The notes beneath the pieces were generated by a model that saw only the letters and a list, made by a program, of their open reading frames with translations, was not told the DNA's origin and did not search any database. A program made the position numbers and the translations under genes. This document shows, one piece after another, positions 4,092-50,678 of a stretch of DNA of 50,968 nt (position 1 is its first letter; each line of letters opens with the position of its first letter). The stretch is from Clostridia bacterium (GTDB lineage: Bacteria; Bacillota; Clostridia; Acetivibrionales; STF1-152): assembly GCA_028280575.1 (NCBI GenBank), contig JANQLN010000034.1:1-50968 (forward strand), in the 5' to 3' direction.

Positions 4092-4379
4092 ATGAAAATT
4101 TGGGGTGATATCCCTAAGGTACAGGGAATATACAATAAACAAAAAAGGGTTGAAAAGCCTGGTAAAGCAGGAAAAACAGGATCAACCGGGGATGTGGTAT
4201 CCATATCGGGCAAAGCAAAGGATTTTCAGACCGTATTGAAGGCTTTGAAGAATGTCCCTGATGTCCGTACTGAAAAGGTAAATGAATTATCTTCAAAATA
4301 CAGGTCCGGCAGTTATGATACCAGCGGAAAAGATATAGCGGACAAGATTATTGACTCAATATTGGATAAAAAGGTGTAG
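4092..4379 (+). CDS. flgM: Anti-sigma-28 factor FlgM
   Basis: 95 residues, typical for FlgM. The family holds the flagellar sigma factor inactive in the cytoplasm until the hook-basal body is complete. The C-terminal half shows the conserved pattern: VVSISGKAKDFQ, then VPDVRTEKVNELSSKYRSG and GKDIADKIIDSIL, corresponding to the sigma-binding helices. The start ATG is preceded by AAGGTGG. Its own promoter at 3960-3986 is of the sigma-28 type, so FlgM level should be fed back by its target. It is the first gene of the flgM-flgN-flgK-flgK-flgL series. Confidence 0.93.
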   Translation: MKIWGDIPKVQGIYNKQKRVEKPGKAGKTGSTGDVVSISGKAKDFQTVLKALKNVPDVRTEKVNELSSKYRSGSYDTSGKDIADKIIDSILDKKV

Positions 4380-4423
4380 ATTTTTTATACTTACAAATGT
4401 GTGGGTCCTATGGAGGTGTTTCT

Positions 4424-4915
4424 TTGGAAAATGCTAGCGTAAGGAAACTAATAGGCATACTGGACCAGGAAAGCCTTATTTACAACGATATACTAAAAAT
4501 ATCAAAAAATAAAAAAAATTTGATTGTGGACGGAAAAGTAAGTGAGCTTGAGAATCTTGTGAAGATGGAACAGGCACTTATTGTTAAAATCGGCAAGCTG
4601 GAATCGGATAGGGAAGAGGAGATTAAATTTATTGCACAAGAGTATAATGCGGATAATTTGAATATAACCGGACTAATGAAGCTTATTGACAATACGCAGG
4701 CAAAGGAATTGGAAAAATCACGCAATAATATGCTCAAAATATTAGGAGAGCTTAAGGAAAACAATGATTTAAACTGCAAGCTCGTAAAAAATTCGCTGGA
4801 GTATATTGATTTTTCAATTAATATTTTGAGTCCTGCAGAGGCTGATAAAAATTACAGCAATATGGGAAAGGTGAATGCTCCAAAGAAAAAAAATTTATTT
4901 GACGTGAAAATGTAA
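4424..4915 (+). CDS. flgN: FlgN-type flagellar export chaperone
   Basis: 163 residues from TTG 4424, chosen because GGAGG at 4412-4416 is 7 bases upstream. The reading frame stays open further 5' but without a better site. The sequence is almost entirely alpha-helical with a heptad-like pattern (KLIGILDQESLIYNDILK and similar), as in FlgN, the cytoplasmic chaperone that holds hook-associated proteins FlgK and FlgL before export. The end has a basic tail (APKKKNLFDVKM). Its position directly between flgM and flgK is the strongest support. It ends 13 bases before flgK. Confidence 0.88.
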   Translation: MENASVRKLIGILDQESLIYNDILKISKNKKNLIVDGKVSELENLVKMEQALIVKIGKLESDREEEIKFIAQEYNADNLNITGLMKLIDNTQAKELEKSRNNMLKILGELKENNDLNCKLVKNSLEYIDFSINILSPAEADKNYSNMGKVNAPKKKNLFDVKM

Positions 4916-4928
4916 CGGAGGTTAAATC

Positions 4929-7004
4929 ATGGGAGTTAGCTTTGCAAGTTATGAAATTGCGCGTTCGGGACTTTATGTAAACGAACGTGCACTTTATGTA
5001 ACAGGACACAATATCAGTAATGTGAATACTCCTGGGTATGTAAGGCAACAGGCTATAATCCAGAACGGTCCGACTGTAAATATTCATAAGGGTCCGAATA
5101 TGTTCCAGATGGGACTTGGCGCGGACATCCAGAGAATAAGACAAATCCGGCATTCTTTTCTTGACAATGTATACAGGCAGGAAAATACTACACTTGGCTA
5201 CTGGGAAGCCAGGACAAAAACACTTCAGGATGTCCAGTCCGTAATGTCTGAACCAATGGAAGCCGGGCTTCAAAATGTTATGAATCAATTCTGGGACTCA
5301 TGGCAGGAGCTTTCAAAAGAGCCCGACAGCCTGACGGTAAGGGCACTTGTGAGGCAAAGAGGAGAAGCTTTTGCCCACCATGTTAATCATATGTCCTCCC
5401 AGCTTGATAAGCTCCAGGAGGATTTGAATTCGGAGATAATGGTCAGGATTGACGAAATCAATGATATTACAGACAAAATTGTCAAGCTCAATGAATACAT
5501 CCTTAAAGCGGAGACTGCGGGAGATTCGCCCAATGACTACAGGGACCAAAGGAATACATTGGTGGACAGGCTTACAAAGCTTGTAAATTGTGAAGTATAT
5601 GAAGCAAACGACGGGCAGCTGCAAATAACTGTGGGAGGATATTTCCTGGTAAATAAATCGGAAAGCACTAATCTGGTAGCGGAAGAAAAAACCACAGGTT
5701 CTATTTTCTATGTGCCAAAATTAGAAGGCACCAATATTGAGGTGCCTGTGAAAAATGGTATTTTAAAAGGCTTATTGGAGTCAAGGGGAGAGGTTTTTGG
5801 TGAAAAAGGAAGCATGGAAAACGGCAGTCCCAACACAAAAGCCGATATAGTTTTTGCCGTAGATATTACAAGTACGACAGATGCCCTGGCCAAGATTAAG
5901 AGCAATATACAATCCTATGTGGACGAGCTTGACAGGTCAGGAATTGACTATAATTTGAGATTGATTACATATGGAGATACGGTATACAGCAATGATGATT
6001 TTGGAAAGGACGCAGCATTGCTTGAGGCTGCCATACCTTCGGTCCCAAATGGAGACGGCAATAATAATTTCGGAGGAGCGGGAGGAGTAATACAATCCCT
6101 TGAAGGTACTGCCTTCAGGAATGCCGCAAACAGGTATGCCTTTGTTTTTACAGGGGAAAGCATTGACGGGAACGGGATAACCGGGTCCGGAACAGCCTAT
6201 GGTGAAAGCCTCAATGCCTTGGGTATTAAAACCTCCGTATTTACGGACAGCGGCTATTTTAATGCGGGATATGCAGGTGACACGGGAGAGAATGGCTGGG
6301 ACAGCATAACCCTGAGAACAGGCGGCAAGCTTTATGATATAAATACGGCAGCTTCCGACTTTGCAGATTTGCTTACAGGTGCCGGTACGGATACTGCTGC
6401 TGATGTGGATTCGGAAATAAGCGTTATAGAAGAATCTGCAAACATAATATCAACATTTAAGAAAAGAATTAATTCACTTATAAACATAATGGTAAGGCAG
6501 GTAAATTATCTGCATCAAAGCGGCAAAACAATGGGCAACCCGCCGGTTGACGGTGAAAGCTTTTTTACCGCTATTAACTCGAAATATCCACTGGAAATGG
6601 GCAATATAAAAATCAATGACAATCTTACAAACCTTAATAATATTGTTGCTTCACAAAGTGATGCAAGCGGTGACAATACAATAGCCTTGCAGATTGCCAA
6701 TTTAAGGCATGCAAAGGTTATGAAGGATTCAAGCGGGCTTATAAGCATTGACGAGTATTATCAGAATATAATACTTGATGTAGGGTATATGGGCTTTGAT
6801 GCGGAGAGGATAATGTCAAACCAGACAGGCCTTGTGAATGCGGCCCATCAGCAAAGAGTATCAGTAACCGGTGTTTCCATGGATGAAGAAATGACTAATA
6901 TGATGAGGTACAAGTTTGCTTATAATGCAGCCTCAAAAGCAATCAATGCAGTTGACGAAATGATTAGAACCATTATAGAACGTACCGGAATAGCCGGAAG
7001 ATAG
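4929..7004 (+). CDS. flgK: Flagellar hook-associated protein FlgK with an inserted von Willebrand factor A domain
   Basis: 691 residues, longer than ordinary FlgK (about 500-600). FlgK (HAP1) joins hook and filament outside the cell. The N-terminus (SFASYEIARSGLYVNERAL, NISNVNTPGYVRQ) and the C-terminus (VSVTGVSMDEEMTNMMRYKFAYNAASKAINAVDEMI) are the conserved rod/hook-type helices. Between them, at about 303-485, lies an extra module that reads as a vWA domain. It has the strand ADIVFAVD followed by a DxTxT metal-site motif (D312, T314, T316), then LRLITYGD at about 343-350, FVFTGES at 405-411 and TGGKLYDI near 464-471. The usual Asp after the FVFT strand is absent, so the metal site may be partial. 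The FlgK reading resumes at NIISTFKKRINSLI. GGAGG precedes the ATG. The flgN chaperone gene is adjacent and a second flgK follows 11 bases later. Confidence 0.93.
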   Translation: MGVSFASYEIARSGLYVNERALYVTGHNISNVNTPGYVRQQAIIQNGPTVNIHKGPNMFQMGLGADIQRIRQIRHSFLDNVYRQENTTLGYWEARTKTLQDVQSVMSEPMEAGLQNVMNQFWDSWQELSKEPDSLTVRALVRQRGEAFAHHVNHMSSQLDKLQEDLNSEIMVRIDEINDITDKIVKLNEYILKAETAGDSPNDYRDQRNTLVDRLTKLVNCEVYEANDGQLQITVGGYFLVNKSESTNLVAEEKTTGSIFYVPKLEGTNIEVPVKNGILKGLLESRGEVFGEKGSMENGSPNTKADIVFAVDITSTTDALAKIKSNIQSYVDELDRSGIDYNLRLITYGDTVYSNDDFGKDAALLEAAIPSVPNGDGNNNFGGAGGVIQSLEGTAFRNAANRYAFVFTGESIDGNGITGSGTAYGESLNALGIKTSVFTDSGYFNAGYAGDTGENGWDSITLRTGGKLYDINTAASDFADLLTGAGTDTAADVDSEISVIEESANIISTFKKRINSLINIMVRQVNYLHQSGKTMGNPPVDGESFFTAINSKYPLEMGNIKINDNLTNLNNIVASQSDASGDNTIALQIANLRHAKVMKDSSGLISIDEYYQNIILDVGYMGFDAERIMSNQTGLVNAAHQQRVSVTGVSMDEEMTNMMRYKFAYNAASKAINAVDEMIRTIIERTGIAGR

Positions 7005-7015
7005 GAGGTTTTTTC

Positions 7016-8641
7016 ATGAGAGGGTCTTTTTTTGGGCTTAATGTGGCGGTAAGAGGGCTTTTTACCGCACAGAGAAGCTTAAATGTAGTAAACCATAATA
7101 TCAATAATATAAATACTCCCGGTTACTCCAGGCAAAGGGCGGTACAAACTGCTTCAAGGCCTGCGGCAGCTATGGACGGTACCGGAATGATAGGTACAGG
7201 CTCTAATGTAATATCGCAGGAGAGAGTAAGAGACGAATACCTTGACTTTAAATACTGGAGTGAAAATATTTCTATGGGAGAATGGAAAGCAAAGACAGAA
7301 TTGCTTTCTGAAATGGAAGTAACATTTAACGAGCCTTCTGAAAGTGGTTTTACAAAAATACTTTCAGACTTTTTTAATTCACTGCAGGAGCTGGCCAAAG
7401 ATCCTGGAAGCGAGGCTGCCAGAGCTATTGTAAGGCAGCGTGGAATAACTGCTGCCAAATATTTTAACAGTACGGCCGTACATTTTGAGAAAATGCAGAC
7501 GGATTTGAACATGAGAGTCAGGACAAAGGTAGAAGAGTTGAATTCTTATGCAAAGCAGGTTCAACAGCTGAACAGGCAGATATATATTGCCGAACTGGAC
7601 GGAAGCTCGGCAAATGATTTAAGGGACCAGCGTACTGTACTGGTTGACAGGATGTCCGAAATTGCCAATATTGATGCATCGGAGGTTGTTTATGGCAAGC
7701 TGCCCGACGGCAGGCCGGACAAGCATTTTTTGATTACCATAAGCGGTAAAACTTTAGTAGATCATTACCAGATAAGTGAATTGGCTGTTGAACAAAGAAC
7801 AAGCAAATTAAACGAAGAGGATGTGGATGGCCTTTATGAAGTGGGCTGGGCGGACGGGAACACTCTTGAAATAAAGGGTGGAGAACTTAAAGGTTACCTT
7901 GATATAAGGGACGGAAAAGAAGGAATGAACGGAAGCCCCATATATAAGGGTATACCCTTTTATATGAGAAAAATGAATCAATTTGTACAAACATTTGCAA
8001 AAGCTTTTAATGAGGGATATATTGATAGGAATACGGATTATACAATACAGCCGTCTGAAGACGGGATCGGTCATACCGACGGTTTTGGGGCTGATCCTGA
8101 CGGAATAGACGGTCCCATGGGGGCATCTACAGGAATCAGATTTTTTACCATGCTTGGAGATGACGGAAAGCCTTTGAGCACCTCTGAGTTTATAGACGGG
8201 GAAACGACAATCTCCGGTATAATATCAAGATATGATAAGCTTACGGCTAAAAACTTTTCTCTTAGTGAGGATATAGTTTTGGACTATAACAAAATTGCGG
8301 CATCGGATACGGACATGGAAATCGGAAATATTGAAGTATTAAATTCACTTATTGCCATGAGGCACAATAAAACCATGTTTTCCGAGGGAGGACCGGAGGA
8401 CTTCATGAAATCTTTAATATCTACGCTTGCCATTGATGCCCAGCAGGCAGAGAGATATACGGCTAACCAGAAAGCTATAGTGCACCAGATATCAAACAGG
8501 AGAACTTCATTTTCAGGAGTGTCTCTTGATGAAGAAATGACTAACCTTGTCAAGTTTCAACATGCATACAATGCGTCTGCAAAAATGATAGCCACCATGG
8601 GTGAAATATATGATACATTGATAAACAAGCTGGGAGTTTAA
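7016..8641 (+). CDS. flgK: Second FlgK-type flagellar hook-associated protein
   Basis: 541 residues, normal FlgK length, without the vWA insertion of its neighbour. The N-terminal FGLNVAVRGLFTAQRSLNVV and INNINTPGYSRQRAV and the C-terminal FSGVSLDEEMTNLVKFQHAYNASAKMI are diagnostic for the FlgK family. The middle carries a variable domain with SEDGIGHTDGFGADPDG. GGAGG precedes the ATG by 7 bases. The two paralogues lie head to tail. Known family behaviour would allow one to be HAP1 and the other an alternative or adaptor HAP; which is the principal junction protein cannot be told from sequence, but this one is the more canonical. Confidence 0.93.
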   Translation: MRGSFFGLNVAVRGLFTAQRSLNVVNHNINNINTPGYSRQRAVQTASRPAAAMDGTGMIGTGSNVISQERVRDEYLDFKYWSENISMGEWKAKTELLSEMEVTFNEPSESGFTKILSDFFNSLQELAKDPGSEAARAIVRQRGITAAKYFNSTAVHFEKMQTDLNMRVRTKVEELNSYAKQVQQLNRQIYIAELDGSSANDLRDQRTVLVDRMSEIANIDASEVVYGKLPDGRPDKHFLITISGKTLVDHYQISELAVEQRTSKLNEEDVDGLYEVGWADGNTLEIKGGELKGYLDIRDGKEGMNGSPIYKGIPFYMRKMNQFVQTFAKAFNEGYIDRNTDYTIQPSEDGIGHTDGFGADPDGIDGPMGASTGIRFFTMLGDDGKPLSTSEFIDGETTISGIISRYDKLTAKNFSLSEDIVLDYNKIAASDTDMEIGNIEVLNSLIAMRHNKTMFSEGGPEDFMKSLISTLAIDAQQAERYTANQKAIVHQISNRRTSFSGVSLDEEMTNLVKFQHAYNASAKMIATMGEIYDTLINKLGV

Positions 8642-8676
8642 AATACACAATAAAAAATTTAAAGGGGTTGAGTTAT

Positions 8677-9603
8677 ATGCGGATTACTAATACAATGCTT
8701 ATAGACAATATGATGAAATACATAGGCGGGAATCTTGGGAGGATGAATAAATACCAGGGACAGCTTGGCACGGGTAAAAAGATTCAAAAGCCTTCCGATG
8801 ATCCGGTTGTAGCCGCAAGGGCATTGAAGCTTCGTACCGATGTAGCCGAAATTGGCCAATACAAAAGAAATATAAATGATGCGAAGTCATGGCTTGAGGT
8901 CAGTGAAAGTACCCTGGGCAAACTCGGTGATGTGCTTCACAGGGTAAGAGAGCTTGCGGTCAAGGCTTCCAGCGGTACTAATACCCAGAGTGATACACAG
9001 AAAATACTTAAGGAAGTGAAGCAGCTTAAAACACAGGTTGTCCATCAGGCAAATACGACTTATGCGGGAAGATACTTGTTTTCAGGATTTAAAACCGATA
9101 CCAAGCTTATAAATGATGATGAGGGTGATATTGCATTTGGACAGTTCAATATGGATGTATTAAATACGGAAGCTATAAAATATGAAATAGGTATAGGAGA
9201 TAATATAAACATAAATGTTCCCGGCGGAGACCTTTTCAATTCAGGAGCAGACGCTGCCGCTTCGGGCGTGCCTTCAATGATTGGCAACTTCGACAGCTTA
9301 ATTGCCGCCCTTTCGGCCGGGGATAATGAAGCAATAAGCAGTATGATTGGCGACATAGATGCAGATATGGACAATGTAAGCAGGGTTAGAGCAGACGTAG
9401 GAGCAAGGGTAAACAGGCTTGAGTTAACTGCCAACAGGCTTGATACGGATAATATAAATTTTACGAGGCTAATGACTATGAATGAGGATGTAGATGCTGC
9501 GGAGGCTATAATGAATTTGAAAAATGAAGAAAATGTATACAGGGCATCCCTTGCCGGAGGAGCAAGAATAATTATGCCATCCCTTATTGATTTTTTGAGA
9601 TAA
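8677..9603 (+). CDS. flgL: Flagellar hook-associated protein FlgL (HAP3)
   Basis: 308 residues from ATG 8677, with AAAGGGG at 8661-8667 placed 9 bases before it; a TTG at 8668 lies too close to that site. The N-terminus MRITNTMLIDNMM and the motif QLGTGKKIQKPSDDPVVAARAL are classic FlgL/flagellin D0-D1 signatures. The C-terminus (NEENVYRASLAGGARIIMPSLIDFL) is the matching helix. FlgL joins FlgK to the filament. It follows the two flgK genes by 35 bases and is probably in the same transcript and served by FlgN. Confidence 0.94.
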   Translation: MRITNTMLIDNMMKYIGGNLGRMNKYQGQLGTGKKIQKPSDDPVVAARALKLRTDVAEIGQYKRNINDAKSWLEVSESTLGKLGDVLHRVRELAVKASSGTNTQSDTQKILKEVKQLKTQVVHQANTTYAGRYLFSGFKTDTKLINDDEGDIAFGQFNMDVLNTEAIKYEIGIGDNININVPGGDLFNSGADAAASGVPSMIGNFDSLIAALSAGDNEAISSMIGDIDADMDNVSRVRADVGARVNRLELTANRLDTDNINFTRLMTMNEDVDAAEAIMNLKNEENVYRASLAGGARIIMPSLIDFLR

Positions 9604-20220: not shown

Positions 20221-23200
20221 ATGAAAGGAAAGTTTTCTATGTTTTTTGCGCTAATCCTGGCGATGAACTGCCTGCCGAATATTAGTGCATTATCGCCTGG
20301 ACAGGCGTTGGCAGTACCAAATGCGGCAGAAGTATATGTGTCTAATGATGGAGACGACAGCAATGACGGATCAGCAGCTTTGCCTGTTAAATCAATAGAA
20401 AAAGCTATTGAATTAACCAGGCAAAGCGGGGGAGCAGATAAACATATCATTTTAAAAGATGGAATTTATCAAATCTCACGAACAATTTCACTTGCACCGG
20501 AGGATTCAAATCTCACGATTAGAGCAGAAGCTGGGGCAAATCCAACTATATCCGGTGGTGTCAGGATAGAAAACTGGACACCTGCAGTTCATAATGGTAT
20601 TCAGATGTACGAAGCAGAAGTACCCGGTGAAAAGTATAATTTCAGACAAATGTATGTAAACGGGCAACGGGCAGTACGTGCAAATTCAAGCAACAACGGT
20701 GAAGCATTCAATCAAAATTATCCCCACAGAGTAGATAAATACCACTATGTTGACGGTAAAGCAGCAGGATATGTTGTAGAACGGTCGATTGTGGGAGATG
20801 TCAGAAACGGACAGAATATGGAACTGGTATTCAACGAGGGCTGGAGAAATCATAGAATGGCTGTCAGCAGTCTGATTGAATTAAACGATACGGAAGTGGC
20901 ACTTTACATAGACCCGGAAGTATTTGAGTGGTCACTAACAGCAGATGCGTGGACTAAGCCTGTCATTGGAAAATGGTATTACCTTGAAAATGCATACTCA
21001 CAGCTTAATAGGGAAAATGAATTCTATTATGATGAAGAGCAGGGCAAAGTGTACTATTATCCAAGTAGCGGTGTAGATATGAATACTGCTGACATTTGGG
21101 TATCAGGCGGTGTAGAAACATTAATAGCCATTACGGGAAACAGCACATCTGATACAATAAACAATGTATCTGTTAAAGGTATTACATTTAAACATTCAAC
21201 ATGGAACAGACCTAACACATATGGTGCTTCAACAGTACAGGCAAACTTCTATGTCAATGAAAAAGGCCAGGGCTCCCACACCGACGGTGCAGCCGGGGAG
21301 GGTGGTGTTCAGGCTATACCAACAATAGAAATCGAGTATGCAAGCAACATAAAAATTGACAGAAATACACTGACAAATCTCGGAACAACAGGTGTTAGAG
21401 TAAAGAATGCAACAAACGGCGTGCATATTACAAACAATACATTTAAAGACATATCCGAATCATCTGTAGTTGTTGCTAAATGGACACACAACTTTATAGA
21501 CGATGAAACAGAGGGCATATGTTATGATACAAAGATAGCAAACAACCTTATTGAAGATATAGCAGTAGAGTTTTTTGGAGCGCCGGGACTACAAACATAC
21601 TATACAGATACATTGCTAATTGAAAACAACACATTAAGGAATGTTGGATACGGAGCAATGATGCTGGGCTGGAACGGCTGGCAGGACACTGAAAAAGATT
21701 CAATCACAAGCAGAAATACAACTTTGCGTTACAACAGGGTGGAGGAGTGGTCAAATGAAATAGGTGATACAGGAGGTATCTATACGCTGGGACAGCATAT
21801 GAACTCGGAAGTATATGAAAACTACTATCTGAATGCAAACAGGTACCATGCTTCACTATATTTTGATGAGGGTTCTGGATATTTCTCAGTATTTAACAAT
21901 GTTACAGAGCAAAACAAAGCACTGAAAGGCGGGGCGAAATTCAGATGGTTTAATTGCTGGACTCCTCAGGTACACGATATCTATGCATTCAGCAATTATA
22001 GCAACACTGACCCAAATGACGACGGTACGGTTGTGAATGTAGGTACTCGTGTATACGGCAACAACTGGGATGGAGAAAATCATTTTGAACAAGCCGGTAA
22101 CGGACAATATGGCGAGTGGGGAAAAGCACAAGGCGAGGGCTGGAGCGAAATACCAGCACAAATCATGAACAAAGCAGGTGTTAGAAATGATTATGACACT
22201 GCAAGCCATGAATATCCGCTGAAAATAGCAAAACCAAATGATGTTGCATTCGGAAAAAATTCAATTTTTAGATATGAAAACGGTGACGAAGATTTTGGCA
22301 AGGAAAAGCTTCTTTCCCAATATGCAGTAGATGGATATTACAATAATATTTCCAAAGACCCGTTCGCAATAAATCCAACATTAAAAGATTTTTATGGAGA
22401 TGTGTTCTCTAAAGGCAGTTATGCGCAATCTGGTTTGGATAACCCTTATGGTGCGTTAGAAGTTGATTTGCTTGATACATTTAATGTAAATGAAGTTGAG
22501 ATTGACTTCACCACACAAGGTTATGCAACAGAATACGAAGTACAAGTCTCCATAGACGGCAGTAAATTCGAGACAGTAGATTATGTACAGGACAATACAC
22601 AGGATAATGTTAAATCCGTATTTGGCACAAAATATATCAGGTATATACGTATTGTACCACACAGTCTGAATATAGATGGTATGCAGGTTGTAAATGTATC
22701 AGCATTTGAAGATGTGCCGGCACCTGTTCCGACAAAAAAACCACCGGAAGTATTGGATATAGATGATAATGGATTGATTGCAAAATTCAGTGCAGATTAT
22801 GGTATTGTAAGCAGAGGCACACAATATGTAAGAGAATGGCAGAACCAAGTGCCCGGTGGAAACAGTTTTGTAACTCCGTTACCAAGAGCACACGACGGAA
22901 GCGATGTCACAACAGGAGCACCAAAAAAACCGAAGGTAATAAACTTTGCACTTAATGACCGGCCGACAGTATTTTTCGATGGCTGGGATGACAATCTGGA
23001 AGTGCAAGCAGGATTGGACAAACAAAATAATACGGTATCATTCCTTGCAAGAGGATATCGGGACAGCAGTATACATGTATATGCTGATGAAGATAACAAG
23101 CTGTTTGAAATTGATAACTCAATAGCAGGAGAATGGGCATTGTGGACATTCTCTACAGATAACGGCAATATGACAATCTATAAAAACGGTGAGCAAATAG

Positions 23201-26200
23201 ACAGTAAACGGGTAAGCACAGGTACAATTGATAAGCTTACAATAGGATACAATGTGTGTATTAGATTTAAAACAAGGGGTGCATTTGTCGGAAATGTTAC
23301 ATATGGCGATTTTGCAGAATTTGCAGTATATGACAGGGCATTATCAGAACAAGAAGCAGTTGCTTTATTCGTAAAACACACAGAAAAATATGGTGACTTT
23401 TTAGTTAGGTATGATGTGTCCTTTGAAAGCAATGGAGGTACAGAAGTCGGTAATATGACAGGTGTTATGTCCGGCAGCAGATTGCAAGAGCCTCAAGCAC
23501 CCCAGAAAGCCGGTAATGTATTTGCCGGATGGTACAAAGAACCCGGGCTTATAAACAGATGGCTATTTGGAACAGATATACTATATGGTGATATTACATT
23601 GTACGCAAGGTGGATAGATGAAAACATTTCTGAAGTTGAGCTTGCTGCAAATTCGCTTGGACAAGCGGGTGATGCTTCTATCACAGGTCTTACATCCGGA
23701 GAAATGTATACGGTATTGGTGGAAGACACAGAGCTGTTATATGTGCAGCCCGAAGGAACACTAACATCGGATATTGAACAGGCAGGGCATCTGCAAGGAA
23801 CCGGGATAACAGGACTAATGAACGGATACAGATATTTCGTAAGCAAACACTCGGTGATGATAGATGACAGGGATGATACCATAGAATACGGCGGAATAAT
23901 CGGAAGACATGCCAGTGTTAATAATTCTGACTGCTACAATGATACAAGGACAGTGTTTCATGTTTGGGACGGGGAATATAACAGAAATGACGCATATGTA
24001 AAGTATACATTTATAGGTACAGGTATCAAGTTATACACCGAAAAAGAGGGAGGTGTAACCAATATAGATGTCAGGCTATATGAAGGTGACGGTATTGATA
24101 CGGAGCCCATTGATACATATATATCTGACCAACGTACGGGATATGCTCCGGGAGGACAAAAAGGACAGCAATTATCATACGAAAAAGAAGATTTGGCCCT
24201 GGGAGTATACACTATACTGCTAAAACCTGACTTTGAAGATATGGATAACAACGGCATGAACGGCTTCTTTTCAGTAGATGCATTTGAAGTAGTAAGTCCG
24301 GCAGATGCATTGCTAAAGCCGGTTGATGTAACATTTGAAAGCAATGGAGGTACAGAAGTCGATGCTATTGTCGGTATTATGACAGGCAGTAAGATAACAG
24401 AACCCGAAGTACCGCAAAAAGAGGGATTTATATTTACAGGCTGGTATTCTGATACTGATTTAACACAGCTATGGGATTTTGACAGGGATAGAGTTGCCGG
24501 TGAAATGACATTGTATGCTGGCTGGGTTGCAAGTGATGCTACAGAAGTAGAGCTTGACGAGGATTCACTTGGAGAGGCGGGAGACAAAAAGATTAAAGGA
24601 CTGAATTCCGGAGAACTATATGTAGTCAAAGCAAATACAGGAATTTTTTATACAAAATCTGACGGAACACTAACACCGGATTTTGAAGAAGCCGGACATT
24701 TGAGAGGAAATGAGATAATAGGTCTTATCAATGGTTACACATATTCTGTGAGCAAATATTCAGTGAAGATAGATGACAGGGATGATACCATAGAATACGG
24801 TGGAATAATCGGAAGACATACCAGTGTTAATAATTCTGACTGCTACAATGATACAAGGACAGTGTTTGAAGTTTGGGACTGGAGATACAATAGAAATGAC
24901 GCATATGTAAAGTATACATTTATAGGTACAGGTATCAAGTTATACACTGAAAAAGAGGGTGGTGTAACCAATATAGATGTCAGGCTATATGAAGGTGACG
25001 GTATTGATACGGAGCCCATTGATACATATATATCTGACCAACGTACAGGATATGCTCCGGGAGGACAAAAAGGACAGCAATTATCATACGAAAAAGAGGA
25101 TTTGGCCCTGGGAGTATACACTATACTTTTAAAACCTGACTTTGAAGATATGGATAACAACGGCATGGACGGTTTCTTTTCAGTAGATGCATTTGAAGTA
25201 ATAAGCCCGGCAGATGAAATACCACAGGAAGAGGGTATTTGGGCAGGCAATCTTGATGCTGACAATCTAATACCCAATGAAACCGTCATAGGCGCATCCT
25301 ATCCGCTGGAAACCGTAACGGCCCAAGTCCGGCTGGATGGAGTAACGGACGGACCGGGAGCAGGAGAAGGAATCATGGGGCGGCTAGGTGTGAAGCACGA
25401 AGACGATGATGGTTGGACATGGTATGAAGCAGCATACAAAGGCGACAGCGGTGACAATGATATATACGGGGCAGACTTTATACCGATGGAAACCGGGACA
25501 TTTATATACAAGATGGCGTTTTCCAGCGATCTGGGGGCCAACTGGCACAGTACGGAAGTGAAACAGATTGTGGTGAAGCCGTCCGTGGACCGGATACCGC
25601 CGCCGCCTGCACAGTTGGAGCAGCCTGAACAGGAATCGGGAAGAGTGACGTTGAATTGGACGGTACAAGATGCCGTTTATACGGTTCAGGAGGCCGTATA
25701 CAATATTTTTGCAGCAGATGTATACGGTTTTAAAATCCATAGAGACGGAGAGCCGATTGATAAAATATGGGACGGGGCAGCAAGGAGTTATACCGATTAT
25801 TCTGTTGAAAACGGTACGGCTTATACTTACAGTGTGGAAAGCTTTGATGATTCTTTTAACACAGCAGCAGGAAATACGGTAAAGGTGACACCGGGCACAC
25901 CCCCATCCCCATCCCCTTCTCCTTCTCCATCCCCATCCCAGCCCGTTGAGCGTCCGTCAGGGAAGGTCCCGGGGAAGGCGCCCGATGATGATAAAGTCAA
26001 TGAAATGATCAATGATTTGGATGATGAGCTGGATGCTGATGAGGCCTCCGATATCCTGAATCAAATCGGTAAGCTGGATATTTCCTCGGAGATGGCTGCA
26101 AAAGTGTTGACAAAAGTACTTCAAAAGACCCAGGATATCAATGATAAAACAGCTGCGGCAATGGTACAAATCCTGAATAAAGTGGGACTGATAGAAAGTG

Positions 26201-27423
26201 TAAAGCTGGAAACCCAAGACGGGAAGAAAGTAGCAAAAGTAGAGGAGACAGACCTTAAAGCAGCGTTAAAGAACATGGAAAAGGCGATGGACGACGTCAG
26301 GAAAGAAGTGAAAACAAAATTGAAAGAAGAGGCTGCCGTTACGATTTTAGTAGAGGGGGCAGCGTCGAGGGAGGCGTTGGAAGTACCTGTAGCTGCGGCA
26401 TTTATGGAGCAGCTCCGGGATAAAGGTATTGGCGTGCAGGTGGTCACGGACGACGGAGCCATGAAGCTTCCTGCGGCAGCTATTGGTGAGGAATGGATGC
26501 AAGGGGCAAAGGAAGTGAGGATGACTAGAAAACCTCTGGGTTCGGAGGATGCAGAAGCGGTAAAAGAAAAAATAACGGCAAAAGACAGTGGGTTCAGTCC
26601 TGTTGGCGGGGTGTATCATTTTGAAGTGGTGACAGTAGATGATAAAGGAACCGGCAGAAAAGTCGACAAATTGGATGCTAAGGCCCAAATAGCCATTGCA
26701 ATGAAAGAGAAGGATTTAAAGTCTATCGCGGATAAGAGAAAGGCCGGTGTTTATGATGTGGCGGAAGACGGAACGGCAGTATTTAAGGGCGGTATATTCA
26801 ACGATACGGGTATTGTATTTGAAACCGACCGCTTTGGCAGCTATGTGGTGATGGAATACAACAAAACCTTCCGGGATATTCAAAGCCATTGGGCTAAAGA
26901 TTCCATTGAGGTATTGGCGGCAAGACACATAGCTAAAGGAGTGGATGCAGCCAATTTTGACCCTGGAGGCAAAGTGACCAGAGCCCAATTTGCAGTTTTC
27001 CTGGGAAGAGCCTTAGACCTGGAAAAAGCTGCATATGGACATAAGTTCTCCGACCTGCCGGAGGATGCATATTATACAGGCTATGTACTTGCCATGAATA
27101 AAGAGGAATTCATTCAAGGATATGGAGACGGGACATTTAGACCGGATGAGGAAATCACAAGAGAACAAATGGCTGTAATGATGATGAGAGTTTATGAATA
27201 TCTGACCGGAGAGGACCTAGCGGCAGTAAAAGGCTATAGAGATGCAGCCTTTGCGGATATGGACAAAGTATCCTATTATGCTGCAAACAGCTTGAAGGCC
27301 GCCAAAGCATTAGGCTTGGCCGATGGTGTCGGAGAAAATAGATTTAATCCAAAAGGGAAAGCTGAACGTGCCGCAGCTGCGAAAATGATTGTAAGATTGT
27401 TGGAAAAAGGGGAACACTTCTAA
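20221..27423 (+). CDS. Giant SLH-anchored multidomain surface protein with parallel beta-helix
   Basis: 2400 residues. A signal peptide ends near residue 31 (GQALA). The modules that can be read are as follows. A right-handed beta-helix region lies at about 37-710, opening with VYVSNDGDDSNDGS and carrying repeated N-rich turns such as NNTFKDI. An F5/8 type C-like domain is at about 715-830 and a LamG/concanavalin-like domain at 846-1060. Two copies of an InlB/Listeria-Bacteroides repeat plus a beta-sandwich module lie at 1062-1361 and 1366-1665. A further beta module is at 1673-1790 and a fibronectin III-like domain at 1790-1892. A Pro-Ser linker (PSPSPSPSPS) and a helical/mixed region run to about 2215. 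Three SLH repeats close the protein (2217-2400). It should be fixed to secondary wall polymer and act on or bind a polysaccharide imported by the upstream ABC genes. Lyase, epimerase or pure binding roles cannot be distinguished. Site GGAGGG precedes the ATG. Confidence 0.9.
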   Translation: MKGKFSMFFALILAMNCLPNISALSPGQALAVPNAAEVYVSNDGDDSNDGSAALPVKSIEKAIELTRQSGGADKHIILKDGIYQISRTISLAPEDSNLTIRAEAGANPTISGGVRIENWTPAVHNGIQMYEAEVPGEKYNFRQMYVNGQRAVRANSSNNGEAFNQNYPHRVDKYHYVDGKAAGYVVERSIVGDVRNGQNMELVFNEGWRNHRMAVSSLIELNDTEVALYIDPEVFEWSLTADAWTKPVIGKWYYLENAYSQLNRENEFYYDEEQGKVYYYPSSGVDMNTADIWVSGGVETLIAITGNSTSDTINNVSVKGITFKHSTWNRPNTYGASTVQANFYVNEKGQGSHTDGAAGEGGVQAIPTIEIEYASNIKIDRNTLTNLGTTGVRVKNATNGVHITNNTFKDISESSVVVAKWTHNFIDDETEGICYDTKIANNLIEDIAVEFFGAPGLQTYYTDTLLIENNTLRNVGYGAMMLGWNGWQDTEKDSITSRNTTLRYNRVEEWSNEIGDTGGIYTLGQHMNSEVYENYYLNANRYHASLYFDEGSGYFSVFNNVTEQNKALKGGAKFRWFNCWTPQVHDIYAFSNYSNTDPNDDGTVVNVGTRVYGNNWDGENHFEQAGNGQYGEWGKAQGEGWSEIPAQIMNKAGVRNDYDTASHEYPLKIAKPNDVAFGKNSIFRYENGDEDFGKEKLLSQYAVDGYYNNISKDPFAINPTLKDFYGDVFSKGSYAQSGLDNPYGALEVDLLDTFNVNEVEIDFTTQGYATEYEVQVSIDGSKFETVDYVQDNTQDNVKSVFGTKYIRYIRIVPHSLNIDGMQVVNVSAFEDVPAPVPTKKPPEVLDIDDNGLIAKFSADYGIVSRGTQYVREWQNQVPGGNSFVTPLPRAHDGSDVTTGAPKKPKVINFALNDRPTVFFDGWDDNLEVQAGLDKQNNTVSFLARGYRDSSIHVYADEDNKLFEIDNSIAGEWALWTFSTDNGNMTIYKNGEQIDSKRVSTGTIDKLTIGYNVCIRFKTRGAFVGNVTYGDFAEFAVYDRALSEQEAVALFVKHTEKYGDFLVRYDVSFESNGGTEVGNMTGVMSGSRLQEPQAPQKAGNVFAGWYKEPGLINRWLFGTDILYGDITLYARWIDENISEVELAANSLGQAGDASITGLTSGEMYTVLVEDTELLYVQPEGTLTSDIEQAGHLQGTGITGLMNGYRYFVSKHSVMIDDRDDTIEYGGIIGRHASVNNSDCYNDTRTVFHVWDGEYNRNDAYVKYTFIGTGIKLYTEKEGGVTNIDVRLYEGDGIDTEPIDTYISDQRTGYAPGGQKGQQLSYEKEDLALGVYTILLKPDFEDMDNNGMNGFFSVDAFEVVSPADALLKPVDVTFESNGGTEVDAIVGIMTGSKITEPEVPQKEGFIFTGWYSDTDLTQLWDFDRDRVAGEMTLYAGWVASDATEVELDEDSLGEAGDKKIKGLNSGELYVVKANTGIFYTKSDGTLTPDFEEAGHLRGNEIIGLINGYTYSVSKYSVKIDDRDDTIEYGGIIGRHTSVNNSDCYNDTRTVFEVWDWRYNRNDAYVKYTFIGTGIKLYTEKEGGVTNIDVRLYEGDGIDTEPIDTYISDQRTGYAPGGQKGQQLSYEKEDLALGVYTILLKPDFEDMDNNGMDGFFSVDAFEVISPADEIPQEEGIWAGNLDADNLIPNETVIGASYPLETVTAQVRLDGVTDGPGAGEGIMGRLGVKHEDDDGWTWYEAAYKGDSGDNDIYGADFIPMETGTFIYKMAFSSDLGANWHSTEVKQIVVKPSVDRIPPPPAQLEQPEQESGRVTLNWTVQDAVYTVQEAVYNIFAADVYGFKIHRDGEPIDKIWDGAARSYTDYSVENGTAYTYSVESFDDSFNTAAGNTVKVTPGTPPSPSPSPSPSPSQPVERPSGKVPGKAPDDDKVNEMINDLDDELDADEASDILNQIGKLDISSEMAAKVLTKVLQKTQDINDKTAAAMVQILNKVGLIESVKLETQDGKKVAKVEETDLKAALKNMEKAMDDVRKEVKTKLKEEAAVTILVEGAASREALEVPVAAAFMEQLRDKGIGVQVVTDDGAMKLPAAAIGEEWMQGAKEVRMTRKPLGSEDAEAVKEKITAKDSGFSPVGGVYHFEVVTVDDKGTGRKVDKLDAKAQIAIAMKEKDLKSIADKRKAGVYDVAEDGTAVFKGGIFNDTGIVFETDRFGSYVVMEYNKTFRDIQSHWAKDSIEVLAARHIAKGVDAANFDPGGKVTRAQFAVFLGRALDLEKAAYGHKFSDLPEDAYYTGYVLAMNKEEFIQGYGDGTFRPDEEITREQMAVMMMRVYEYLTGEDLAAVKGYRDAAFADMDKVSYYAANSLKAAKALGLADGVGENRFNPKGKAERAAAAKMIVRLLEKGEHF
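23859..24307 (+). repeat. Copy 1 of a nearly identical in-frame repeat in the giant surface protein gene
   Basis: This stretch matches 24768-25216 almost base for base at a fixed offset of 909 bases (303 codons), with scattered substitutions. It encodes a beta-sandwich module running from DDRDDTIEYGGII to GFFSVDAFEV that looks like a carbohydrate-binding fold. The preceding InlB-type segments (about 23404 and 24316) are also duplicated but clearly more diverged. Confidence 0.9.
24768..25216 (+). repeat. Copy 2 of the nearly identical in-frame repeat
   Basis: Second copy of the module at 23859-24307. The differences are few and mostly single bases, for example HVWDGEYN against EVWDWRYN and GMNGFF against GMDGFF in the encoded protein. 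Such identity favours recent duplication or gene conversion. Confidence 0.9.
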
Positions 27424-45148: not shown

Positions 45149-46240
45149 ATGGGTAGAATAAGCCTGTTATTAATTGACAAAGATTATGAATATATAAGCA
45201 GTTTAAGCAATTATATAGCAGTTAATTATTCTCATTTGTTTACAGTAAGCTTTGTTACCCCGGCACAATTTAAAAAAAATGATTACAATAAGAATACGGA
45301 TATTTTGTTAACTTCAAGAGAAATCCATGAAGATTACCCTGTTAATTCAGGCCTGGTACTGTTTTTTTCAGAAGATAAAAATGTAACCGGATATGACAGT
45401 ATATATAAATTTCAGCACTGTGACCTGTTAGTAAAAAAAATTATCGATTACTATACATCCGAAAAAGGCCCGTTTTCACCGATTAACAGCGGCATGTGCC
45501 TTTGTGTGGGCATATACGGTCCTGTTTTTGATACGGTAAATATGACATTGGGTGCGGGGCTTGCAGCAAGAAGTGCTTTAAAGGGAAGAAATATATTGTT
45601 TTTTGATTCAGACGGCGCAAGCGTCATAAAAATTATTTTTAAAAATTCATGTAATGCTTTTTCAAATGTTCTGTACAGGGTAAAGGACGGGTATCCGAAT
45701 ATAGGAACAATACTGGACGGGGTTACCTGTGCTTCCGATATCAGCGGATTATTTTATCTTCCCCGGGCAGAAAGCCTTTTAGAGCTTGATGAAATATCAC
45801 CGGAAGATTATGTAAAAATTGTATCTTCATTAAAATCACTGGGCAGCTATGATTTTATTATGGTGAATATGGACAGCAGGCTTGATAAAAGGAATTTTGC
45901 AATATTAAATGAATGTGATATTATATTTGTCCCGTTTTCAAACAATAAAATGGAAACCCAAAGGCTTGAGACAATAAAGAAAGAGCTTGATTTACAGGAA
46001 GACAAAAACGGCTGCCGTATACAGGAGAATATGGTACCTGTCCAGTTAGGTACTGACGATACAAGCTGTTATCCAATCGGCAATAGCATCCTCGGAAAGG
46101 AAGTAGTTGAATTTGCGCCCAAGGAAACCGGCAGTCTGGTTGATTTAGATTATTTCAGAAATGAATTAAGCCATTTATCCGGCTTTTTGGATTTGCTGCT
46201 GAAAAAATATGTTTTCCCTAAAATGGAGGATCTGGAGTGA
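45149..46240 (+). CDS. CpaE/TadZ-like protein with degenerate P-loop
   Basis: 363 residues. The N-terminal 110 residues look like an atypical receiver domain (SLLLIDKDYEYISSLSNYI), as in CpaE/TadZ. The second half has the ParA/MinD-like layout (VGIYGPVFDTVN at 120-131, then LKGRNILFFDSD, YDFIMVNMDSRLDK, CDIIFVPF). The Walker A position, which should read GGxGKT, has GPVFDTVN without Lys, so ATP hydrolysis is unlikely. TadZ proteins localise the Tad pilus machine at the membrane, and some known TadZ have atypical P-loops. AAGGAG precedes the ATG. It overlaps tadA by 4 bases, the first of a tightly packed operon. Confidence 0.8.
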   Translation: MGRISLLLIDKDYEYISSLSNYIAVNYSHLFTVSFVTPAQFKKNDYNKNTDILLTSREIHEDYPVNSGLVLFFSEDKNVTGYDSIYKFQHCDLLVKKIIDYYTSEKGPFSPINSGMCLCVGIYGPVFDTVNMTLGAGLAARSALKGRNILFFDSDGASVIKIIFKNSCNAFSNVLYRVKDGYPNIGTILDGVTCASDISGLFYLPRAESLLELDEISPEDYVKIVSSLKSLGSYDFIMVNMDSRLDKRNFAILNECDIIFVPFSNNKMETQRLETIKKELDLQEDKNGCRIQENMVPVQLGTDDTSCYPIGNSILGKEVVEFAPKETGSLVDLDYFRNELSHLSGFLDLLLKKYVFPKMEDLE

Positions 46241-47448
46241 AGAATATAAATAACCTTATCCAGCATATAAGAGACAGTATATGCCGGACCCTGACATTGG
46301 AGCAGGAAATGTCCGACGAAGAATTAAGGGAGAAAATTATTGAAATGGTATTTAATATATCAAAGGACAAGTATATTACCCTGCAGGAAAAAAAGCTTGT
46401 TGTAGACACGGTTTTCAATTCAATGAGGGGGCTGGACATACTCCAGCCCATGATTGACGACGAAGACGTTACAGAGGTTATGATAAATGGTCCGGACAAT
46501 ATATTCATAGAAAAAAATGGGAAAGTGAGCAAACAGGATATCAGGTTTGAAACTGAAGATAAATTGGAAAGCTTAATACAATCGGTTGTGTCCAGGGTAA
46601 ACAGAACGGTAAATGAGGCTGCACCCATAGTTGACGCCAGGCTGCTGGACGGCTCAAGGGTTAATGTTGTGTTAAAGCCTGTTGCTTTAAACGGGCCTGT
46701 TATGACTATAAGGAAATTTGGAAGCAAATTTTTGACAATGGAGAAAATGATAGAATTTGGTACAGTCAGCAAGGAAGCTGCGGGATTTCTAAGTACCCTT
46801 GTGAAGGCAAAATATAATATTTTTATCTGCGGGGGGACAAGCTCGGGAAAAACCACTTTTCTTAATGCACTTGCCGGATATATTTCAAAGGATGAAAGGA
46901 TTATTACAATAGAAGATTCTGCCGAGCTTAGGATTGAAGGGATAGAAAATATAGTAAGTATGGAAACAAGGAATGCCAATGTTGAGGGAAAAGGTTCAAT
47001 AAGCATAAGGGAGCTTATCAGGACATCCTTAAGGATGAGGCCGGAAAGGATAATTGTAGGTGAGGTTAGAGGAGCAGAAGCGCTTGATATGCTACAGGCT
47101 ATGAATACAGGACATGACGGGTCATTATCCACAGGACATGGAAACTCGGCAAAGGATATGATGAGCCGTCTTGAGACAATGGTGCTGCTGGGTGCAAATT
47201 TGCCCCTTGATGCAATAAGGAGGCAAATAGCATCTGCTATTGATATCATAGTCCATATTTCCAGGATGGGAGACGGAAGCAGGAAGGTTCTTGAAATTAG
47301 TGAGATTGACGGCATAATTGACGGACAAATCAATTTGAATCCTGTTTTTTACTTTCATGAAGGTAAACTTATAAAAACAGGCAGTGAATTTAAAAACAGG
47401 GCTAAATTCATTATGGCCGGCAAAGGAGGATATATAGATGGATTATAA
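46237..47448 (+). CDS. tadA: TadA/CpaF-type secretion and pilus assembly ATPase
   Basis: 403 residues from GTG 46237 (GGAGG upstream). The family order is complete: an N-terminal helical domain, VTEVMINGPDNIFIEKNGKV, Walker A GGTSSGKT (199-206), the ASP box ITIEDSAELRI, Walker B RIIVGEVRGAEALDML and the His box TGHDGSLSTGHGNS. This hexameric ATPase powers assembly of Flp/Tad pili together with the two inner-membrane TadB/TadC proteins encoded next. The end overlaps tadB by 11 bases, implying coupled translation. Confidence 0.95.
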   Translation: MKNINNLIQHIRDSICRTLTLEQEMSDEELREKIIEMVFNISKDKYITLQEKKLVVDTVFNSMRGLDILQPMIDDEDVTEVMINGPDNIFIEKNGKVSKQDIRFETEDKLESLIQSVVSRVNRTVNEAAPIVDARLLDGSRVNVVLKPVALNGPVMTIRKFGSKFLTMEKMIEFGTVSKEAAGFLSTLVKAKYNIFICGGTSSGKTTFLNALAGYISKDERIITIEDSAELRIEGIENIVSMETRNANVEGKGSISIRELIRTSLRMRPERIIVGEVRGAEALDMLQAMNTGHDGSLSTGHGNSAKDMMSRLETMVLLGANLPLDAIRRQIASAIDIIVHISRMGDGSRKVLEISEIDGIIDGQINLNPVFYFHEGKLIKTGSEFKNRAKFIMAGKGGYIDGL

Positions 47449-48178
47449 CAATTACGAAATGAAAATCAGGGAAAAAGCACTCTGCTTTATAGCTGCGGCG
47501 GCAGTTATATACTGTATTGCCTTCATATTTTACAGAAGCCATCTTATATCCGGCATTGTAAGTATGTCCGGGTTACTTTATCCGGCAATCAAAAAACGTG
47601 AAATAATAGAAAAAAGAAAGAGGGAATTAAACCTGCAGTTTAAGGATTTATTATACACTGTTTCCTCGTCGCTGTCATCGGGAAAATCTGTGGAAATGGC
47701 ATTTTACAATCTTCCAAAAGACCTTGAAATACTTTACCCTGAAGAGACTGCGATGATCAGGCAGGAAACAGCCTTAATAATTAAAAGGCTTAAAATGAAT
47801 GATCCCATTGAAAAAGCCCTGGCTGATTTTGCCGATAGATCGGCTGTGGAAGATATAAAGAGCTTTACAGATGTTTTCAAAACATGTAAAAGGGCCGGTG
47901 GCAATATAGTTGAGGTGATAAAAAATACAACACAAATAATAAGTGACAGGATTGAAGTCAGGCAGGAAATTGAAATGCTGGTGGCTGAGAAGAAATTTGA
48001 GCAAAAGATTTTAAATATTGTTCCTGTGGCTATGATATTGCTGCTGTCAGCCAGTGCACCGGAGTATATAGAACCAATATTTAAGACTCTTGCGGGAAGG
48101 GTGGTTATGACATTATCGCTGGTTCTTCTTTTATGTGCATATGTCATCTCGAAAAAAATTGTTGATATCAAAATATGA
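47438..48178 (+). CDS. tadB: TadB-like pilus assembly platform protein
   Basis: 246 residues. Two hydrophobic segments lie near the N-terminus (CFIAAAAVIYCIAFIF and the following LISGIVSMSGLLYP) and two at the C-terminus (IVPVAMILLLSA, VVMTLSLVLLLCAYVI). Between them is the T2SSF-type domain (DLLYTVSSSLSSGKSVEMAF, then DFADRSAVEDIKSFTDVFKTCKRAGGNIVEVI). This is the first of the paired platform proteins on which the ATPase acts. GGAGG precedes the ATG. It is slightly shorter than Gram-negative TadB, as usual in Clostridia. Confidence 0.9.
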   Translation: MDYNNYEMKIREKALCFIAAAAVIYCIAFIFYRSHLISGIVSMSGLLYPAIKKREIIEKRKRELNLQFKDLLYTVSSSLSSGKSVEMAFYNLPKDLEILYPEETAMIRQETALIIKRLKMNDPIEKALADFADRSAVEDIKSFTDVFKTCKRAGGNIVEVIKNTTQIISDRIEVRQEIEMLVAEKKFEQKILNIVPVAMILLLSASAPEYIEPIFKTLAGRVVMTLSLVLLLCAYVISKKIVDIKI

Positions 48179-48193
48179 GGAGGCATTTTTTGA

Positions 48194-49054
48194 ATGTTTT
48201 ATTTACTTGTTTTCATGATATTATCAAGCAGCGTTATGTTTTATATTTCCAGAGGGAAATATAATCACATGCTTAAAGATGTTAAAAAAAGAGAGTTTCC
48301 ATTAAAGGAATTGCTTCCTATAGGCTTGCTTTTTTTAGAGTTAACGGGATATAAATACAAATCATCCTACGACAGAGGCATTTCAATTATTTCCGGTGAG
48401 CTTTACGGCAACACTCTTGCCAGGGATATGCTTAAGGTTTTTTGGGCAAACAGGATAATATATATTATGATTGGAATAACCATTATATTGACAATCTGCC
48501 AGTTTACGGGCCCTGGCAATAAAATGCTTATATTCCTTGCTTTGCTGGTGTCAATAATACTTGTTACAACGGACAGGGAATTGAGGAATAAACAAAAGAG
48601 GAGAAAAATATCCATACAGTTTGCGTTTCCAGACTTTATCAATAAATTTACACTTTTAATAAATGCGGGTATGACTACACGTTTTGCCTGGGAAAAAATA
48701 GCTGCCGAAGCTAAAAAGGAAGAGCCGCTTCAAAAGGAATTAAGGTGTGCGGTTATGGATATGAAATCCGGCGTGCCTGAAATCAAGGCTTATGAACGTT
48801 TTTCAAAAAGGTGCGGAATACCTGAAATAACAAGGCTTGTTTCGGTGCTGGTTCAAAATATCAGGAAGGGCAACAGTGAGCTGGTCTCTGTTTTGAGAAT
48901 AAGCGGGGAGGAGTGCTGGCACATGAGGAAAAATGTAGCAAAAAAAATGGGTGAAGAAGCGTCTACAAAAATGATTTTTCCTCTTGCCTTTATGCTTATA
49001 GCAATATTATTGATTGCCATAACCCCTGCTATTTTAGCCTTAAAGGGATTTTAG
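48194..49054 (+). CDS. tadC: TadC-like pilus assembly platform protein
   Basis: 286 residues. One N-terminal helix is followed by a cytoplasmic linker, two helices near 90-125 (IIYIMIGITIILTICQF, MLIFLALLVSIILV), a T2SSF domain (FPDFINKFTLLINAGMTTRF, then VLVQNIRKGNSELVSVLR) and a last helix (MIFPLAFMLIAILLIAITPA). The C-terminal EEASTKMIFPL pattern is typical of TadC. It follows tadB by 15 bases with GAGGAGG as ribosome site. Confidence 0.92.
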   Translation: MFYLLVFMILSSSVMFYISRGKYNHMLKDVKKREFPLKELLPIGLLFLELTGYKYKSSYDRGISIISGELYGNTLARDMLKVFWANRIIYIMIGITIILTICQFTGPGNKMLIFLALLVSIILVTTDRELRNKQKRRKISIQFAFPDFINKFTLLINAGMTTRFAWEKIAAEAKKEEPLQKELRCAVMDMKSGVPEIKAYERFSKRCGIPEITRLVSVLVQNIRKGNSELVSVLRISGEECWHMRKNVAKKMGEEASTKMIFPLAFMLIAILLIAITPAILALKGF

Positions 49055-49089
49055 GATTAATGGCTTTAGGGAGGGGGGAGGTGATAAAT

Positions 49090-49299
49090 GTGTTAATGCG
49101 TAATTTTTTAGAGAAAGAAAAGGGTCTGGGAACAGTTGAAATTGTTATTATTATTGCGGTTTTGGTAGGGATTGCTTTAATTTTCAGGGAAGCAATAATA
49201 AATTTTGTTACAGATATCATGGAAAATGTTTTTGGGGATGATTCTATAGTAAATGATCTAAACAGCACCGGCATAAGAGACAATAATAAGATTAATTAA
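49090..49299 (+). CDS. Flp1-like prepilin
   Basis: 69 residues from GTG 49090, placed 8 bases after GGAGG within GGAGGTGAT (49077-49085), a near-perfect ribosome site that outranks the longer open frame. After a short basic leader comes EKGLGTVEIVIIIAVLVGIALIF. Cleavage after KG would leave Glu at position +5 of the mature pilin, as prepilin peptidases of the Tad/type IV class require. A 20-residue hydrophobic helix and a short polar tail (DDSIVNDLNSTG) follow. This should be the structural subunit of the pilus. Only one pilin is present and no prepilin peptidase gene lies in the window. Confidence 0.85.
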   Translation: MLMRNFLEKEKGLGTVEIVIIIAVLVGIALIFREAIINFVTDIMENVFGDDSIVNDLNSTGIRDNNKIN

Positions 49300-49322
49300 T
49301 TTGAAGGGGAGAATAATATTTT

Positions 49323-50678
49323 ATGGTAAATGCGTCAAAACCGGATTTCGAGTTCATCTACAGCAATAACTCCAGGGCAAGCAACTTGATAATCAAGACA
49401 AAAAATGACAGCAGTATAGTCCATCACCAGGTTGAAATGCTTGTTAGAAACAATATATCGGGAATAATCAAGCTTAATTTACTCTACAGCGATATGGAAA
49501 TGAATCTTTATTATGAAATTACATCAAAATTATCCCTGAAAAAGTTTTTAAGCTTGAAAGTGTTAAAAAGAGAGGAGATTCTTTCAATACTCAGCCAGAT
49601 TATAAGAATACTGACCTTATCTTCCGGAAGCTATATGCTTTATGACAAATATTTTCTTATTGATAGTGATTATATATTTATCGAGCCTGATACACTAAAC
49701 GTCTGGATGGTATATGTCCCGGTAAAAAGAGAGGCGGAAGCAGTAAGTAAATTCAGGGAGTTTGCACTTGATATTGTTACCGGTCCGGTAAATCTAATTG
49801 AACAGGAAGATGATGACAATTATTTGCAAAGGCTCATATCTTTTTTAAAAGATGATTTATATACACCAACCGGTTTTGTGAAATTATTGGATGAGCTGCT
49901 TGCCAAAAAGAGGAAAGAACATAAACTGAAAACTGTTGACTTTAAGCTTAATAAAAGCAGCGCTGAAAAGGCAGAGGAAGAAACTGCCGCCGCCTCTCCG
50001 GCGGTGGAAAAGGGTACTAAGGAACATGATGCGGTAAATATTACAAGAACAGGTATTATAGCTATTTTATTAACCCAGTTATTTTTTCTAGGTATTTTTA
50101 TAGTTTTTACAAGCGTTGTTCCAGGCGGTTTTCCAAAAGCTGCTGCCGAAACCTTTGGTTTGCTGCTGGTAATTGGGGCACTTGATTTCATTATCACAAG
50201 ACATTTGGCTGCAAGGTTTAAAACAGCCGGTCCCGGTGGGGAATATCCATTCCAAAAACAAAAGAATACAGTGCAAAAGCAGCAGAGCAAGGAAGCTGAA
50301 GTGCAAAGGAAGAAGACAGATGGAAATATAACATATCTGAGTAACAAGACGGAAATACTTGATGAAAGAAGCTTGGGCGTGCCGTGCCTTGTACCAAAAA
50401 ACAAGCATTCCTCTGATGAAATCCATATAGTCAAGTCCAGCATTGTTATCGGCAGAATGCAGGATATGGTGGATTATATCATTAACAACAATTCCGTCGG
50501 AAAAGTGCACGCAGAAATTATTGTAAAAGATGAGTGCTATTATTTGAAGGACTTAAACAGCAGGAATGGAACATATATAAATGATAAAAAAATAGACAGC
50601 AATATAGATTACAGCATAAATAATAAGGACAGGATTACTTTTGCAAACTGCGAATACGTATTTATTCAATCATATTAA
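49323..50678 (+). CDS. DUF6382 and FHA domain membrane protein of the pilus operon
   Basis: 451 residues. The N-terminal 190 residues match the DUF6382 pattern (MLVRNNISGIIKLNLLYSDME, LSSGSYMLYDKYFLIDSDYIFIEP), a domain regularly found with FHA domains beside clostridial Tad loci. A linker rich in Lys/Glu/Ala leads to two hydrophobic segments at about 242-265 and 275-295. A Gln/Lys-rich linker then joins a C-terminal FHA domain (about 374-451) with IVIGR, the SVGKVHAE recognition segment and LNSRNGTYIN. FHA domains bind phosphothreonine, so the protein may link pilus assembly to Ser/Thr kinase signalling; the ligand is unknown. It is the last gene before the terminator. Confidence 0.88.
   Translation: MVNASKPDFEFIYSNNSRASNLIIKTKNDSSIVHHQVEMLVRNNISGIIKLNLLYSDMEMNLYYEITSKLSLKKFLSLKVLKREEILSILSQIIRILTLSSGSYMLYDKYFLIDSDYIFIEPDTLNVWMVYVPVKREAEAVSKFREFALDIVTGPVNLIEQEDDDNYLQRLISFLKDDLYTPTGFVKLLDELLAKKRKEHKLKTVDFKLNKSSAEKAEEETAAASPAVEKGTKEHDAVNITRTGIIAILLTQLFFLGIFIVFTSVVPGGFPKAAAETFGLLLVIGALDFIITRHLAARFKTAGPGGEYPFQKQKNTVQKQQSKEAEVQRKKTDGNITYLSNKTEILDERSLGVPCLVPKNKHSSDEIHIVKSSIVIGRMQDMVDYIINNNSVGKVHAEIIVKDECYYLKDLNSRNGTYINDKKIDSNIDYSINNKDRITFANCEYVFIQSY

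Follow-up and report, generated by a model that had tools for sequence, protein, structure and literature searches.

The first of two tandem FlgK proteins encoded in a clostridial contig carries a von Willebrand factor A (vWA)-like domain between two intact FlgK halves. Profiles and alignments indicate that this insert is a conserved, loss-prone and widespread module, occupying a single site in the FlgK1 proteins of several clostridial families. It is therefore not a one-off fusion.

The window (the whole stretch of DNA that was analysed, 50,968 nucleotides long) places the gene in a flagellar junction operon:

4092..4379, + strand: flgM-like anti-sigma factor gene, upstream of flgK1 (by eye from the ORF list)
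4397..4915, + strand: flgN-like chaperone gene, upstream of flgK1 (by eye from the ORF list)
4929..7004, + strand: flgK1, a FlgK hook-associated protein (691 aa) that contains a vWA-like domain (TIGR02492; Pfam FlgK_D1, Flg_bbr_C and Flg_bb_rod)
7016..8641, + strand: flgK2, 541 aa, a second tandem FlgK lacking a vWA domain (TIGR02492 317 bits; hhalign against canonical vWA 1.9%)
8668..9603, + strand: flgL-like junction gene, 311 aa (by eye from the ORF list)

The flgK1 product reaches 324.4 bits against TIGR02492, whose curated cut-off is 170.75. Both ends of the protein are present, the open reading frame is intact, and the three Pfam domains FlgK_D1, Flg_bbr_C and Flg_bb_rod each exceed their cut-offs. 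FlgK2 and the FlgL-like frame follow downstream, and a second FlgK is also found in relatives.

The two paralogues (4929-8641) are 34% identical and lie ahead of the FlgL-like gene, an arrangement that recurs in the relatives examined. If both were assembled, the junction would have one extra ring. A literature search found no paper on such a tandem pair. In two other genomes (G054 and G033, downstream of L009 and L013) the FlgK2 frames are 886 and 852 aa long, compared with 541 aa in the window, and other domains may be inserted there. Elsewhere in the window, inspection by eye picked out a 2400-aa secreted protein (20221-27423) that begins like a beta-helix and has repeated modules and, towards its C-terminus, S-layer-like repeats, as well as tad/Flp pilus assembly-like genes (45149-50678) for a CpaF-type ATPase, TadB/TadC-like proteins and an FHA protein.

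Residues 287 to 511 of FlgK1 enclose 223 residues that are absent or almost absent in vWA-free relatives, and the domain itself takes up most of this segment:

5820..6389, + strand: vWA-like domain, residues 298-487 of FlgK1 (PF00092 E 8e-4 for the segment, 18/24 homologues matching; hhalign to canonical vWA E 1e-20)

A sequence-only reading of the same DNA had placed a vWA domain between two intact FlgK halves at 5838-6390, close to the span found here, and it had listed the motifs D312, T314, T316, LITYGD, FVFTGES and TGGKLYDI, all of which are at the places given. Taken alone, the window segment matches Pfam PF00092 weakly (E 8e-4; 20.1 bits, under the curated cut-off of 23.8), and phmmer with this segment found no match in the PDB. 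The homologous inserts are more telling. PF00092 is matched by 18 of 24 homologous FlgK inserts, with a best E-value of 6.7e-12, and VWA_2 by five of the 24. Searched against the PDB, the profile of the insert family finds single integrin I domains, namely 1v7p (integrin alpha-2, E 9.5e-5) and 9hll (integrin alpha-M, E 1.3e-4). Two rows scored higher, one a designed repeat protein and the other collagen VI, but their scores add up many weak repeats, so only the single-domain integrin matches were used.

Direct comparison of profiles points the same way. Against five canonical secreted clostridial vWA domains, the FlgK inserts align by hhalign at 99.3% and E 1e-20, a value that refers to a single comparison rather than a database search. 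The alignment covers 168 of 189 columns, so that the sequence-based match runs from the first strand to the last. The window segment alone gives 95.1%, while the negative control, FlgK2, gives 1.9%. AlphaFold2 models, both made from input lacking a usable alignment, had mean pLDDT values of 33 (the domain with a single relative, L038) and 32 (whole FlgK1 with FlgK2), too low to be informative on the fold. It is at the level of sequence profiles that the insert is confirmed as a vWA-like domain, and its fold is deduced from them.

The site of insertion was located by aligning a profile of 29 FlgK1 proteins with the FlgK of Salmonella and C. jejuni (PDB 9gsx, 9go6):

5784..5822, + strand: N-terminal junction, R286 to N298; D1a alpha6-alpha7 loop that receives the domain and corresponds to C. 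jejuni R299/G300-G313 (aligned with PDB 9gsx and 9go6; helix boundaries from PMC5691160)

Profile positions 9-286 align with Salmonella FlgK 6-287. Positions 509-545 align weakly (4.1 bits) with Salmonella 294-330; from 577 onwards the C-terminal part aligns with Salmonella from 450. Because the flanks align up to 287 and again from 294, the insert falls in the six-residue gap between them, upstream of a helix that ends in N-x-x-H-x-x-G. On C. jejuni FlgK it maps to R299/G300-G313/I314, where a published 14-residue insertion splits the D1a helix into alpha6 and alpha7 (PMC5691160). The domain is therefore a D1a loop insertion and not part of D2/D3. This differs from the earlier proposal, in which it sat in an outward-projecting variable domain of FlgK. 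According to the model published for C. jejuni, D1b and D2 make up the ring's outer face and D1b touches the hook (PMC5691160). Since the insertion point is near D1b in sequence, an outward and hook-facing position of the vWA-like domain is a reasonable inference.

The domain is found well beyond the window. FlgK matches occur in 55 of 60 related genomes. Of the 47 FlgK1 proteins compared, 35 have the insert, with 173-239 residues separating the two junctions; in the 12 that lack it, 5-38 residues lie there. FlgK2, wherever it was examined downstream, is free of the domain. When 391 genomes of the class were sampled, the insert profile matched in 41. Six of the matches, all from outside the order (L083-L087 and L090), proved on reading to be FlgK proteins with the insert at the identical site, and a second FlgK adjoins in five of these six stretches; the remaining matches were judged by the length of the ORF alone. 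Sampling 299 genomes of the phylum turned up no FlgK besides that of the window: apart from the window itself, the six matches comprise a flagellin, a surface-type protein and three secreted proteins that are almost identical to one another. No match to the FlgK1 alignment was found in viral contigs, and a plasmid search returned FlgK matches only, which omitted the insert region or covered at most 70% of the query. The window's own genome contains no other flagellar vWA protein; its remaining matches are non-flagellar.

When presence and absence of the domain are mapped on a FlgK1 core tree, at least four changes are needed, and the starred branches force all four. The vWA-free FlgK1 proteins of one family (f14; L048-L055) nest inside groups of carriers. 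They retain 20-38 residues at the site, for instance SRGDSINSLGSMDGGISALENS, and several of these remnants resemble both flanking linkers of the domain; compare SRGDSINSLGSMDGGISALENSTSII with SRGEVFGEKGSMENG...SEISVIEESANII in the window. This resemblance suggests that the domain was lost and its linkers left behind, so these non-carriers read as domain losses with linker scars. Four non-carriers outside this family have 5-7 residues at the site and could represent either the ancestral state or complete losses. In a further family (f6; L060-L063) the domain is shortened, its middle part being gone.

Where it is present, the insert is conserved by purifying selection, loosely, while evolving fast. 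In close pairs where both ratios can be estimated, simple Nei-Gojobori counts put dN/dS at 0.13-0.20 in the insert, compared with 0.04-0.07 in the FlgK core. Identity in the insert drops much faster than in the core; among pairs in the 55-65% band of core identity, the means are 0.25 and 0.59.

Canonical vWA domains of the MIDAS type bind metal through a DxSxS motif, a Thr and an Asp. In the window, the first ligand loop is kept (DITST) and the other two ligands are lost, so the domain does not have the full set:

5862..5876, + strand: remnant of MIDAS motif 1, D312-I-T314-S-T316 (sequence; column counts over 41 FlgK inserts)
6069..6071, + strand: F381, where canonical relatives have the MIDAS Thr; this ligand is lost (column counts)
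6153..6155, + strand: G409, aligned with the third MIDAS Asp; this ligand is lost (column counts)

Among the 41 inserts counted, the first Asp is present in 32, a DxSxS-like motif in nine, the Thr in none and the third Asp in five. Of these ligand columns, that of the Thr is the least secure, because the middle loop is hard to align. Eight comparison domains have the first Asp in every case and the third in six. The earlier suggestion that the third Asp is missing and that binding could be metal-poor thus holds for the Asp, for which G409 stands. It understated the degradation, however, as the middle Thr is gone too.

What such a domain does at the junction can be approached by weighing several explanations. 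One of them would make the segment an ordinary FlgK D2/D3 that merely resembles vWA. Like D2/D3 the segment is variable and internal, and its single-sequence vWA score is under the cut-off. Its position is nevertheless different: the profile alignment puts it at Salmonella 287-294, whereas the outer domains D2/D3 come after 330, at about 331-449, and the corresponding stretch of FlgK1 is a minimal one of only about 31 residues. The family-level vWA evidence is strong, and close FlgK1 relatives lack the whole insert. This identity is rejected on position and largely refuted; only a very slight chance is left to it.

Another possibility is an outward-facing adhesin, whose eleven copies per flagellum would attach to other cells, plant fibre or matrix and would do so with no canonical metal site. 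Adhesion is a common task of vWA domains, and the insert diverges quickly compared with the core, as suits an exposed surface. vWA inserts are also known from the flagellins of other bacteria (PMC5595980, Table 1). Loss of the MIDAS does not exclude adhesion, because metal-independent vWA adhesins could exist. Against this, the MIDAS ligands are degraded in almost all members, the domain is repeatedly absent, and a place at the filament base, in about eleven copies, is a poor one for adhesion. Nor is a tie to lifestyle seen: we take cellulose degraders to be present among the carriers and to include one non-carrier, so the domain does not track a cellulose-degrading way of life. The adhesive role at the hook tip put forward earlier is not supported by these observations, and we consider it unlikely. 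The degenerate metal site, together with the shortened versions in one family and the several lineages in which linker scars remain in place of the domain, would suit a near-neutral passenger that has no function today, having entered a permissive loop long ago and been subject to drift and loss since then. Yet the domain has been retained for long across several families, and the dN/dS of 0.13-0.20 in close pairs indicates purifying selection, part of which may act only on folding and export. A passenger is likewise a doubtful explanation.

The reading that we prefer, and hold to be somewhat more likely than not, is that the vWA-like domain of FlgK1 is accessory to the junction ring, works independently of metal and has a role in surface or packing. 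The process would start with a secreted-type vWA domain entering the alpha6-alpha7 loop of D1a in the FlgK1 of a clostridial ancestor. In Salmonella, the FlgK layer consists of eleven subunits (PMC12221982). If the same number holds here, eleven vWA-like domains would encircle the junction of hook and filament, close to the outer surface that faces the hook; this geometry and exposure are deduced. The metal site for canonical ligand binding has been lost, so the domain would most likely act without metal. It may contact neighbouring junction or hook proteins, or shape the surface of the junction as the variable D2/D3 domains do. Because it was lost repeatedly, it is presumably not strictly needed for assembly, provided that the vWA-free species are motile, as we assume. 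A bolder form of this proposal, in which selection maintains the ring of eleven vWA-derived domains as a working collar of clostridial flagella that binds or bears force without metal, and which is common in the group but undescribed, seems improbable at present.

The general kind of protein, a vWA domain within an axial flagellar protein, is already known from flagellins. In Table 1 of Eckhard et al. 2017 (PMC5595980), vWFA ranks eighth by frequency among the domains in the hypervariable regions of flagellins, with 21 cases; there the domain is simply listed. Two examples were met in this analysis. A flagellin from elsewhere in the same phylum (L047 and L088; G109) has a vWA insert that matches PF00092 with E 4.7e-12 (L047). 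In a flagellin from a Candidatus Lindowbacteria MAG (L038:4581-6098), the insert starts with NTKADIVFGID, like that of the window, and hhalign gives 96.7% against the FlgK inserts, while Pfam recognises only the flagellin ends. The host in these cases is a flagellin, present in thousands of copies, rather than FlgK. The insert of the first example keeps DNTGS, in contrast to the degraded metal site of the FlgK inserts.

The nearest non-flagellar relatives found are secreted clostridial vWA proteins (L043, L077-L080). They match the insert profile over nearly its full length but are non-flagellar and retain the metal motifs DTTGS...D(T/S)PET...TDA. Among FlgK proteins, the D2/D3 domains of Salmonella and Burkholderia (PDB 9go6, 2d4y, 4ut1) are likewise variable domains on a conserved core. 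They differ in being placed after the N-x-x-H-x-x-G helix and in their fold, D2 being a beta barrel in the published structures.

A literature search, made mostly without subscription papers, found no description of a FlgK-vWA protein or of D1a as a site for vWA, and no described function, in agreement with the sequence-only reading. Domain insertions in flagellins are known, some with new activities; here the junction protein FlgK serves as a host too. The closest counterpart in position is the D1a segment G300-G313 of C. jejuni FlgK (PDB 5xbj, PMC5691160), which lies at the identical point of the D1a helix bundle but has 14 residues and forms no domain. A core loop described elsewhere only with that 14-residue insert thus appears, in these clostridia, to hold a fold usually linked to adhesion, one that is under selection and yet dispensable.
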